From: Pseudomonadota bacterium
Lineage (GTDB): Bacteria > Pseudomonadota > Gammaproteobacteria > Burkholderiales > Burkholderiaceae_C
DNA: 33,774 nt
Assembly: GCA_021815805.1 (NCBI GenBank)
Contig: JAKAZQ010000033.1
Location: 1-33,774, forward strand
Direction of reading: 5' to 3'
Each line of letters opens with the position of its first letter. Positions within the stretch are counted from its first letter, which is position 1. The notes beneath the pieces are model-generated. The model was not told where the DNA came from and ran no database searches. It saw only the letters and a list, made by a program, of their open reading frames with translations. A program made the position numbers and the translations under genes. Positions 2,143 through 12,231 of this stretch are shown piece by piece.

Positions 2143-2160
2143 TGTCGCCGCATGGCGACG
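2143..2160. promoter_or_regulatory. GlrR-type upstream activating site 1
   Basis: TGTC at 2143-2146 and GACG at 2157-2160 are separated by exactly 10 nt. This is one base off the GlrR recognition pattern TGTC-N10-GACA known from enterobacterial glmY. The dyad extends inward as TGTCG-N8-CGACG. Its centre lies 63 bp from that of the second site, about six helical turns. Confidence 0.5.
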
Positions 2161-2205
2161 AAAAAGTTCAGCTCCGGCCACGAGTTGCGTCAGCTCGCCG
2201 AAAAC

Positions 2206-2223
2206 TGTCGGAGCTCGGCGACA
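2206..2223. promoter_or_regulatory. GlrR-type upstream activating site 2 (perfect match)
   Basis: TGTC (2206-2209) and GACA (2220-2223) flank exactly 10 nt, a perfect TGTC-N10-GACA pattern; the dyad extends to TGTCG-N8-CGACA. It is centred about 132 bp upstream of the start predicted for the sigma-54 promoter at 2320-2335, a usual enhancer distance. glrR itself lies directly upstream. Confidence 0.6.
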
Positions 2224-2224
2224 A

Positions 2225-2237
2225 AATCCAGGCTTTG
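2225..2237 (+). promoter_or_regulatory. IHF-like site
   Basis: AATCCA-GGCT-TTG matches the IHF consensus WATCAA-N4-TTR with one mismatch. It sits between the GlrR-type sites and the sigma-54 promoter, where IHF would be expected to bend the DNA. Such short degenerate matches are common by chance, so this counts mainly through its position. Confidence 0.3.
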
Positions 2238-2264
2238 ACACCCCATGGACCCCATGGAAACTCG

Positions 2265-2284
2265 GAAAACCCGCCGGGGTTTTC
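2265..2284 (+). terminator. Possible glrR terminator (AAAACCC-GCCG-GGGTTTT hairpin)
   Basis: An 8-bp perfect stem GAAAACCC / GGGTTTTC (2265-2272, 2277-2284) closes a GCCG tetraloop, with the A and T runs inside the stem base. This is a common bidirectional terminator form. It lies between the GlrR-type sites and the sigma-54 promoter, so it would insulate the downstream gene from glrR transcription. Confidence 0.45.
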
Positions 2285-2319
2285 GGGAAAGTCCTGCAAA
2301 AAGAACAGGTTATCTGGCC

Positions 2320-2335
2320 TGGAACACGCATTGCT
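2320..2335 (+). promoter_or_regulatory. Sigma-54 (-24/-12) promoter
   Basis: TGGAAC-ACGCA-TTGCT matches TGGCAC-N5-TTGC(A/T) with one mismatch. The invariant GG (2321-2322) and GC (2333-2334) are exactly 10 nt apart. The predicted start is near 2346. With the two GlrR-type sites and the IHF-like site upstream and glrR as the neighbour, the case is much stronger than for an isolated match. Confidence 0.6.
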
Positions 2336-2352
2336 AACCAGGGATCCGAGCG

Positions 2353-2688
2353 GTGTGGCAGCACGTGCACCGCGCCTACCACCTGTTCCACCCTGCGCTG
2401 TTGCCTCGCCCCGTGTTCCTGCCAACCCGATCCGCCCCGAGACTGCTGCTTGCCTGCCTGGCGTGCGGCGTCGCCTGTGGTGTCGCACTTGCCGCCGGCA
2501 TGCCCGCCGAGACGCAGGCCCAGGCGGATGCGACCAGCGCATGGGCGGGTACGGCCAGCAGCCCGGCGCCGGCGCAGGCGGCGCTGCATGCCGGGCCGGC
2601 GGCCAGCCCGGTTCAGCTTCCCGCCGCGGCGCCTACGAAGGTTTCGCAGCCGGCGCAGCATCTGAGCCTGGCCGCGACACGCCACTGA
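2353..2688 (+). CDS. Short secreted Ala/Pro-rich protein of unknown function
   Basis: This open frame of up to 111 residues resembles no family I know. From a GTG at 2413 it reads as a good signal peptide: a short basic n-region (PTRSAPR), a hydrophobic core LLLACLACGVACGVALAAG, then a mature part rich in Ala, Pro, Ser and Gln with little predicted structure. The longest form starts at GTG 2353 behind an AGGGA sequence. If the sigma-54 promoter at 2320-2335 is real, its start near 2346 leaves almost no leader for that codon, so 2413 (91 residues) is the better start. Third positions are strongly G/C, as in the neighbours, which supports coding. It has its own promoter-like signal and a strong terminator 54 nt after the stop. 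The transcript could alternatively act as a small RNA. Confidence 0.5.
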   Translation: MWQHVHRAYHLFHPALLPRPVFLPTRSAPRLLLACLACGVACGVALAAGMPAETQAQADATSAWAGTASSPAPAQAALHAGPAASPVQLPAAAPTKVSQPAQHLSLAATRH

Positions 2689-2741
2689 CCCCCTCATCGC
2701 CGGCCTGCCGTCACGGCAGGCCAGGCTGCCGTCCCCCCTTG

Positions 2742-2769
2742 GCCAAGCCGCGTGCTTGGCATTTTTTTT
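2742..2769 (+). terminator. Strong intrinsic terminator
   Basis: A 7-bp stem GCCAAGC / GCTTGGC (2742-2748, 2754-2760) with a 5-nt loop is followed by A and eight T. A second perfect hairpin, GGCCTGCCG / CGGCAGGCC (2702-2710, 2714-2722), lies just before it. Together they close the transcript of the short secreted protein and separate it from deaD. Confidence 0.85.
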
Positions 2770-2859: not shown

Positions 2860-4698
2860 ATGTCTGTTGCCGATACATCTCCCTCTTCCTCCGCTGACGC
2901 GAGTTCCGCACAGCCGGGTTTCGCCGACCTGGGTCTGCCCGAGCCGCTGTTGCGCGCGCTGCACGACGTCGGCTACGAAACGCCGTCACCGATCCAGGCG
3001 GCCACCATCCCGCCACTGCTCGAGGGGCGCGACCTGCTGGGGCAGGCGCAGACCGGCACAGGCAAGACGGCGGCCTTCGCGCTGCCCATCCTGGCGCGCG
3101 TCGACGTGGCGCGGCGCGAGCCGCAGGCCCTCGTGCTGGCGCCGACACGCGAACTGGCGATCCAGGTCGCCGAGGCGCTGTCGCGCTACGCCGCGCACAT
3201 GCCCGGTTTTCATGTGCTGCCGATCTACGGCGGGCAGAGCTACACGCCCCAGCTGGCGGCGCTGCGGCGCGGCGTCCACGTGGTCGTGGGCACGCCTGGC
3301 CGGGTGATCGACCACCTCGATCGCGGTACGCTCAAGCTCGACGCTCTGCGCCAGCTGGTGCTGGACGAGGCCGACGAGATGCTGCGCATGGGTTTCGTCG
3401 ACGATGTCGAGCGCATTCTCGCCAGCACGCCGCCGCAGCGCCAGGTCGCGTTGTTCTCGGCGACCATGCCCGCGCCGATCCGCAGCATCGCGCAGCGCCA
3501 TCTGCGCGAGCCGGCGCAGATCACCATCAAGGCCCAGACGCGCACCGCCAGCGGCGTGCAGCAGCGCTACTGGATGGTCAGCGGCATGCACAAGCTGGAC
3601 GCGCTCACGCGCATCCTCGAGGTCGAGAGCTTCGATGCCATGATCGTGTTCGCGCGCACCAAGGTGGCGACCGAGGAACTCGCCGAAAAGCTCGCGGCGC
3701 GCGGCTTCGCCACCGCGCCGCTGAACGGCGACATCCAGCAGGCACAGCGCGAGCGCACGGTGCAGCGCCTGAAGGACGGCGCGGTCGACATCCTGGTGGC
3801 CACCGACGTGGCGGCGCGCGGCCTCGATGTCGATCGCATCAGCCACGTCGTCAATTACGACATTCCCACGGATACCGAGTCGTACGTGCATCGCATCGGG
3901 CGCACCGGGCGTGCCGGTCGCAGCGGCCAGGCGATCCTGTTCGTGACGCCGCGCGAGCGCTACCTGCTGCAGTCCATCGAGCGCGCCACCCGGCAGCGCA
4001 TCGAGCCGATGCAGCTTCCCAGCATCGAGGCGGTGAACGACCGGCGCACGGCGCGGTTTTTCGAGCGCATCACGCAGGCCCTCGAGCAGCAGGAGGCATT
4101 GCGTCCGTATGTCGAACTGGTCGAGCGCTACGAGCGCGATCATGACGTGCCGGCCCAGGAAGTCGCCGCCGCGCTGGCCAGCCTGCTGCAGGGCGGCAAG
4201 CCGCTGCTGCTCGAGCCCGGCGCGAACGCGGCGGGGCGGCCCGAGCGCGGCGCGCGCGAGCCGCGTGCCGGCGCGCCGCGGGCGCCGGACGAGCCCTCGC
4301 GCAGCCTGGAGCAGATCGCCGAGCAGGCCTTCACCGAGATCGAGCAGGGGCGCGCCCGGCGCCAGGCCGCTGCGTCCGCCGCGCTGCAGACCTACCGCGT
4401 GGAGATCGGGCGTGAGCACGGCGTCGAGGTGCGCCACCTGGTCGGCGCGATCGCCAACGAGACCGGACTCGACAACCGGCGCATCGGCAACATCGCGATC
4501 CGCGGCAGCTACAGCCTGGTGGAACTGCCGGCCGACCTGCCGCGCGATGTGCTGCGGGTGCTGCAGCGCCTGCGCGTGCTCGGGCGGCCGCTGCAGCTGA
4601 CGCCGGCCGAGCAGGATGCCGCGCCGCCGCGCCGGCGCGACGCGCCGGGCTCGCGCAAGCCGGCGCCAGCGGCGCCGCGGCGCAGGCCGACGCGCTGA
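2860..4698 (+). CDS. deaD: DEAD-box RNA helicase DeaD/CsdA
   Basis: A 612-residue ATP-dependent RNA helicase of the DeaD (CsdA) group, acting in ribosome assembly and mRNA unwinding, classically at low temperature. In order: Q motif with the upstream Phe (FADLGLP, residue 21 on), Walker A AQTGTGKT (63-70), PTRELAIQ, TPGR, DEAD (169-172), SAT, then the second RecA domain ending in HRIGRTGRAG. After an arginine-rich linker, residues ~510-580 form a DbpA-type RNA-binding fold (VEIGREHGVEVRHLVGAI), followed by a basic Pro/Arg tail. This C-terminal fold separates DeaD from RhlE or RhlB. E. coli DeaD is 629 residues. The ATG at 2860 lies just before the Q motif; upstream in-frame codons would add a poor extension crossing the preceding terminator. 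No strong Shine-Dalgarno is visible. Confidence 0.88.
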   Translation: MSVADTSPSSSADASSAQPGFADLGLPEPLLRALHDVGYETPSPIQAATIPPLLEGRDLLGQAQTGTGKTAAFALPILARVDVARREPQALVLAPTRELAIQVAEALSRYAAHMPGFHVLPIYGGQSYTPQLAALRRGVHVVVGTPGRVIDHLDRGTLKLDALRQLVLDEADEMLRMGFVDDVERILASTPPQRQVALFSATMPAPIRSIAQRHLREPAQITIKAQTRTASGVQQRYWMVSGMHKLDALTRILEVESFDAMIVFARTKVATEELAEKLAARGFATAPLNGDIQQAQRERTVQRLKDGAVDILVATDVAARGLDVDRISHVVNYDIPTDTESYVHRIGRTGRAGRSGQAILFVTPRERYLLQSIERATRQRIEPMQLPSIEAVNDRRTARFFERITQALEQQEALRPYVELVERYERDHDVPAQEVAAALASLLQGGKPLLLEPGANAAGRPERGAREPRAGAPRAPDEPSRSLEQIAEQAFTEIEQGRARRQAAASAALQTYRVEIGREHGVEVRHLVGAIANETGLDNRRIGNIAIRGSYSLVELPADLPRDVLRVLQRLRVLGRPLQLTPAEQDAAPPRRRDAPGSRKPAPAAPRRRPTR

Positions 4699-10566: not shown

Positions 10567-12231
<1,665 letters not shown>

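Follow-up and report, generated by a model that had tools for sequence, protein, structure and literature searches.

In Escherichia coli, the regulator QseF/GlrR acts together with IHF and sigma-54 to drive the small RNA gene glmY, which lies beside its operon (PMC6075780). As described in PMC6075780 and PMC8745638, the glmY unit precedes the kinase gene and combines three sites of the TGT-N12-ACA type with IHF and a sigma-54 promoter. A second point of comparison is the Bordetella small RNA S17, which is located by coq7 and has a sigma-A promoter; its long form covers a small ORF, and RNase E cleavage of this form yields a 67-nt 3' RNA, which acts at ribosome-binding sites (PMC11722255). No paper on GlrR targets in betaproteobacteria was found among the mostly open-access literature matches listed, and PMC3162934, in its passages on QseF, names none.

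The locus described here lies on a 33,774-nt stretch of DNA (the window; contig G000:C9) from a 3.1-Mb, 71-contig assembly, which is the source genome. Like the glmY unit, it pairs a regulator of the GlrR type with TGT-N12-ACA sites and a sigma-54 promoter, with an IHF-type site in most relatives; it has two sites instead of three, and these lie behind glrR. Unlike glmY, it carries a C-rich 3' module and an optional ORF and has no Rfam RNA match in the window: assignment of the module to GlmY or another Rfam family was rejected, the only Rfam hit at or above gathering score there being a tRNA. A first-pass annotation of this DNA had anticipated an output different from that of the enterobacterial system, and on this point it is supported. 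At the transcript 3' end, the likeness is to S17 and the BdhR1/RF02278 "toxic small RNA" (PMC11722255, PMC4603805, and PMC7011215) and consists of a C/U-rich stretch preceding a terminator.

Results

A GlrR-type/sigma-54 unit behind glrR

The product of glrR (positions 621 to 1973, + strand) has a receiver domain and a sigma-54 AAA+ domain (Pfam Response_reg and Sigma54_activat). Its highest-scoring match among the NCBIfam models listed is GlrR (NF011695) at 562.4 bits, although this falls below the curated cutoff of 763. The gene preceding glrR is truncated by the window start; in one relative, G013 (L197), a HisKA/HATPase frame upstream of glrR represents a sensor kinase gene. On the other side of the unit, a DEAD-box helicase gene identified by domain search starts at 2860, downstream of the terminator.

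The first-pass annotation had proposed two TGTC-N10-GACA-type sites 63 bp apart, one perfect and one with a single change, followed by a sigma-54 promoter with GG-N10-GC spacing, and both elements are present as described. Site A (TGTCGCCGCATGGCGACG, 2143 to 2160, + strand) has one mismatch, site B (TGTCGGAGCTCGGCGACA, 2206 to 2223, + strand) is perfect and starts 63 bp after A, and the promoter (TGGAACACGCATTGCT, 2320 to 2335, + strand), whose -24 element reads TGGAAC, has a predicted transcription start at about 2346. The window thus has two TGT-N12-ACA-type sites (2143 and 2206) upstream of a -24/-12 promoter (2320). Single sites with at most one mismatch occur in the window at chance level (10 versus 9.9 expected), and a further perfect TGTC-N10-GACA site lies at 10992 to 11009. 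In 3,000 dinucleotide shuffles of the sequence between glrR and the C tract in the window, no pair at a spacing of 62 to 65 bp appeared. Across the source genome, sigma-54-like sites number 56 + 59, compared with 16 + 24 in a reversed control.

The copy in the window is weaker than those of most relatives. At the position of their IHF-type site (2288 to 2300, + strand) it reads AAAGTCCTGCAAA, with 4 of 9 specified bases wrong. In the interval from site B to the promoter, the best IHF-type sequence has 2 mismatches and stands 92 bp upstream of the promoter. The window copy also lacks an ATG or a ribosome-binding site at the place where relatives have them, and its site A lies 169 bp from glrR, compared with 1 to 90 bp in 25 other paired-site loci.

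We assembled 27 loci of the genus, 24 of them through the glrR ortholog alone (found in 24/25 genus genomes searched) and three (L112, L117, and L128) through the 3' module pattern. Retention of the sites in relatives with glrR had been named in advance as a test of the unit, which it passed: the site pair is present in 26/27 loci, at a spacing of 63 or 64 bp, and the promoter in 27/27, with 0 to 1 mismatch to TGGCAC-N5-TTGCW and with GG and GC intact. Paired sites plus promoter in strict form occur in 22/27 loci, compared with 0 of 5,400 dinucleotide shuffles; the exceptions are L013, with one site within one mismatch, and L014, L015, L016, and L018, in which site B has two mismatches. The first-pass annotation had proposed an IHF-like site for the window without giving coordinates; in the genus, 19/27 loci carry YAANNNNTTGATW with 0 to 1 mismatch 31 to 32 bp before the promoter (versus 6 of 10,800 mononucleotide shuffles), and in the window this position is degenerate.

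The comparison of DNA-site and frame conservation called for by the first-pass annotation gave mean pairwise identities, with L013 omitted, of 0.84 for the module, 0.74 for site A, 0.76 for site B, 0.74 for the promoter, 0.62 for the IHF position, 0.54 for the ORF, and 0.42 for the leader; the values for the sites and promoter, chosen by consensus match, and for the module, chosen by its invariant 16 bases, are biased high. A search of five genomes for a GlrR site plus TGGCAC gave 8 matches, of which 3 are the glrR unit and 5 lie inside genes or are unclear; the pattern overlooked the glrR unit in two of the five. Because the pair was absent from 3,000 shuffles and the strict unit from 5,400, the arrangement exceeds chance. 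We conclude from these sequence comparisons that the GlrR-type/sigma-54 unit is real and is kept behind glrR in relatives, with GlrR as its presumed ligand and RpoN as its presumed sigma factor.

An invariant module at the 3' end

The downstream part of the unit ends in three elements, all on the + strand. A GC-rich hairpin (2699 to 2726), whose arm sequences vary among relatives, is followed by the C-rich tract CCCCCCTTG (2733 to 2741), which we propose as a seed, and by the terminator GCCAAGC-CGCGT-GCTTGGC (2742 to 2769), with a stem at 2742 to 2760 and then A plus T8. The fold z-score for 2695 to 2769 is -3.38. The tract, which includes CCCCCC at 2733 to 2738, is predicted to be unpaired with a mean probability of 0.94 and is invariant in 27/27 loci. 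Terminator-like sites as such occur in the window at chance level (1 versus 1.3 expected).

Across the genus, the transcript 3' end CCCCCCTTGGCCAAGC-N4/5-GCTTGGC-W-T7 is identical in 27/27 loci. The module alignment has 30 invariant columns, both stem arms included, and 7/7 terminator stem pairs are unvarying among 19 distinct module sequences. There is one module copy per genome in 27/28 genus genomes; the exception, G016 (91% complete), also has no glrR ortholog. Best folds leave the whole of the shorter tract CCCCCCUUG unpaired in 21/27 loci and pair part of it in the other 6, to the greatest extent in L011, L012, and L021; in the consensus fold built from 12 loci (A2), the 3' half of the C tract pairs with upstream bases. 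Some loci form a weak upstream hairpin (z-scores of -0.71 in L011 and -1.49 in L013), and the consensus fold of this hairpin has little covariation.

A model of the module (R1) reaches full scores of 62 to 67 bits within the genus only; elsewhere, in drawn samples of 200 family and 300 order genomes taken under stricter filters, the best score was 39 bits and weak matches were many. In the flanking sequence examined at 20 such loci, glrR homologs (E up to 1e-10) and GlrR-type sites 62 to 65 bp apart were both absent. In other families, C-rich tracts (for example, CCTCCCCC or CCCCCC, then TTGGC) abut terminators behind other genes (L158, L163, L165, L166, and L167); such tracts may mark a general class of 3'-end RNAs.

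A short protein frame is common but not constant

As first annotated, a short gene precedes the terminator. The frame at 2353 to 2688 (+ strand) has a GTG start and encodes 111 aa, rich in Ala and Pro, with an AAGMPAET motif and a start that by eye resembles a signal peptide; its product matched nothing in Pfam or NCBIfam. Its true start is uncertain in the window, which has neither ATG nor Shine-Dalgarno sequence at the relatives' position. With transcription predicted to start at about 2346, a start at the GTG (2353) would leave almost no leader. The relatives' start is an ATG further into the frame, looked for first 60 to 110 nt past the promoter; the chosen ATG lies 67 to 75 nt past the promoter in 18/20 other ORF loci and 104 nt past it in L002 and L003.

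Counting the window, an ORF with the GMP motif (AAGMP) is present in 21/27 genus loci. It is missing from 6/27, meaning that no ATG, GTG, or TTG frame with GMP[AP][EDQ] terminates before the C tract, and the distance from promoter end to T-run end in these loci is 81 to 154 nt. Two of the six, L011 and L012, are among those with a partly paired tract. On the glrR tree, the six fall into three separate groups, and starred branches there force at least two state changes. We read the absence as probable loss, not gain, since the motif is common to all clades that have the frame. The dN/dS ratio (Nei-Gojobori, with some dS values at or over 1) shows purifying selection on the ORF in two clades (0.07 to 0.33); in three others it is 0.33 to 0.73.

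A proposed S17-like seed in one clade

An RF02278 RNA scores above the cutoff at a separate locus in 28/28 genus genomes. In the source genome, this S17-type RNA (L195, G000:C10:20339-20401, 67.3 bits) adjoins what by eye is a coq7-like frame, the neighborhood given for S17 in Bordetella (PMC11722255). A reading of 12 genus loci shows the C/U-rich 5' part of this RNA to be almost invariant and, by eye, one pair of its terminator stem to change from G-C to A-U.

In one clade (L014 to L021, 8/27 loci), the glrR module contains TTGTCTCCTCCCCCC, which matches the 5' end of the genus RF02278 RNA at 14/15 bases; in the three loci tested (L014, L017, and L019), this match arose in 0 of 500 shuffles each. 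Five other loci tested, the window included, were at shuffle level (10/15 in the window; 296 of 500 shuffles). Membership of the module in RF02278 was rejected, with scores of 24.6 (L017) and 23 bits (L019) against a gathering cutoff of 50, and the window module (L001) gave no RF02278 match up to an E value of 5. Weak RF02278-like 3' ends (E values of 1.9 and 1.6) lie behind the glrR-unit frames of two other families (L026, 3989 to 4032; L027, 3753 to 3789).

glrR units outside the genus

Shuffle controls covered the loci of the genus; counts beyond it are raw. At 16 of 35 outside-genus loci (L025 to L030 plus the first 29 of 80 loci), a sigma-54 match with 0 to 1 mismatch lies behind glrR together with one or more GlrR-type sites. 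Nitrospirota and Desulfobulbaceae MAG records are among these 16, and the site-promoter gap in L047 is 350 bp; none of the enterobacterial (L051, L055, and L056) or Halomonas (L040 and L046) loci among the 35 qualifies. Within the family, a glrR match (E up to 1e-120) was present in 39/150 genomes, including two from this genus. A GlrR-type site and a sigma-54 promoter lie behind glrR in 21 of the 28 non-genus loci examined (L231 to L258), with 11 further rows falling outside this count.

The units of other betaproteobacteria are similar in place, sites, and promoter, and an envelope protein gene follows; in the samples scanned, model R1 reached full strength nowhere outside the genus. MdoG/OpgG-like frames often come next in other genera of the family, as supported by Pfam in the two fragments tested (one of them from L036) and by eye in the rest, which suggests that GlrR may control periplasmic glucans there. 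Elsewhere the next frame is BON (7/8) or a glycine zipper (1/8). In L030, from another family, the promoter is followed about 120 nt on by a terminator with no frame between (about 3017 to 3150), possibly a second, unrelated GlrR-driven RNA. On these sequences, the cassette looks old and its cargo variable, with the C-rich module apparently the genus's own version.

Discussion

Our favored interpretation, which we consider reasonably probable, is that the unit specifies a GlrR/sigma-54-controlled small RNA from the transcript 3' end, whose seed is anti-Shine-Dalgarno-like and whose transcript often also encodes a small secreted protein. From the features described above, we infer the following course. 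A sensor kinase would activate GlrR, which would bind the two sites 63 bp apart behind glrR; with the help of IHF bending in most species, the sigma-54 promoter would fire. The transcript, of about 70 to 470 nt, would end in the genus-wide module, consisting usually of a hairpin, the mostly unpaired CCCCCCUUG, and the sequence-invariant terminator hairpin with its U tail. This 3' end would act alone, or after release by an RNase from a longer coding transcript, as a small RNA of the Hfq type, covering the G-rich Shine-Dalgarno regions of its target mRNAs; in 21/27 species the 5' part would additionally encode the small protein with a signal-peptide-like start. We prefer an S17-like mechanism by analogy, because the layout of the glrR unit resembles that of S17; the two differ in that S17 has its separate coq7 locus and sigma-A promoter and the module lies behind glrR under a sigma-54 promoter. 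The trait of Hfq-dependent small RNAs, an unpaired C/U-rich stretch plus a Rho-independent terminator with a U tail, is predicted in the unit, and 27/28 genus genomes have an hfq gene. Start sites complementary to the seed (AAGGGGGG-N-ATG) number 1 in the source genome, whereas its reversed control has 4, which leaves no target set evident there; summed over 28 genomes, they number 199 versus 70, an excess that G-rich Shine-Dalgarno sequences alone could explain. With 25 of 30 loci examined, the target search was uninformative.

The first-pass annotation had put the secreted protein first and an RNA second. The annotation is partly supported in this: comparison of the loci leans toward its RNA alternative, the ORF being missing in three groups. 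That the protein is nevertheless the output, and the module merely a strong terminator, seems to us unlikely. Such a reading would fit the presence of the ORF in 21/27 loci, its conserved AAGMP, the dN/dS of 0.07 to 0.33 in two clades, and the protein genes that follow comparable units in other genera, but the promoter and module stay where the ORF is missing. Moreover, a terminator requires pairing only, yet all seven stem pairs are fixed among the 19 distinct sequences, and the RF02278 terminator stem does vary. These comparisons favor an RNA as what the unit constantly yields; the protein would accompany it, and three species groups lack it.

The fixed stem might also be expected of a DNA element, as TTGGCCAA is a DNA palindrome with both arms invariant; however, the module is single copy in the genus, sits at the end of the unit, and carries a T-run. 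A leader of the next gene fares no better, the helicase gene being downstream in 16/27 loci and absent from the 0.8 to 1.5 kb examined in the other 11; the downstream gene differs among clades, and a helicase leader specifically is rejected. We regard either role for the module, in place of an RNA product of the GlrR promoter, as highly improbable. It is improbable, to a lesser degree, that the unit of the source genome is decaying and perhaps weakly used though working in relatives. The mismatch in site A, the TGGAAC -24 element, the degenerate IHF position, the missing ATG and Shine-Dalgarno sequence, and the 169 bp between glrR and site A would all agree with decay, but the spacing, site B, GG/GC, and the entire 3' module are intact, and single mismatches occur in other loci too.

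A broader reading, which we put forward tentatively and hold to be rather doubtful, is that GlrKR controls a cassette fixed behind glrR whose cargo is exchangeable: an envelope protein in much of its range (periplasmic glucan synthesis, BON, or glycine zipper) and a new small RNA in this genus, with an S17/BdhR1 seed in one clade. If this were true, an envelope-stress regulator and another regulator would each drive a sibling anti-Shine-Dalgarno RNA, and the nondrifting terminator stem would itself be functional, for example in pairing or in dimer formation through UUGGCCAA.

Returning to the GlrR-controlled 3'-end RNA, the six species that have promoter and module without the ORF can separate the RNA from the protein. 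If our interpretation is correct, betaproteobacteria would gain a GlrR-controlled small RNA, a counterpart of GlmY that differs from it in sequence and place. It would also point to a conserved two-component system whose output is exchanged by swapping what follows one promoter.
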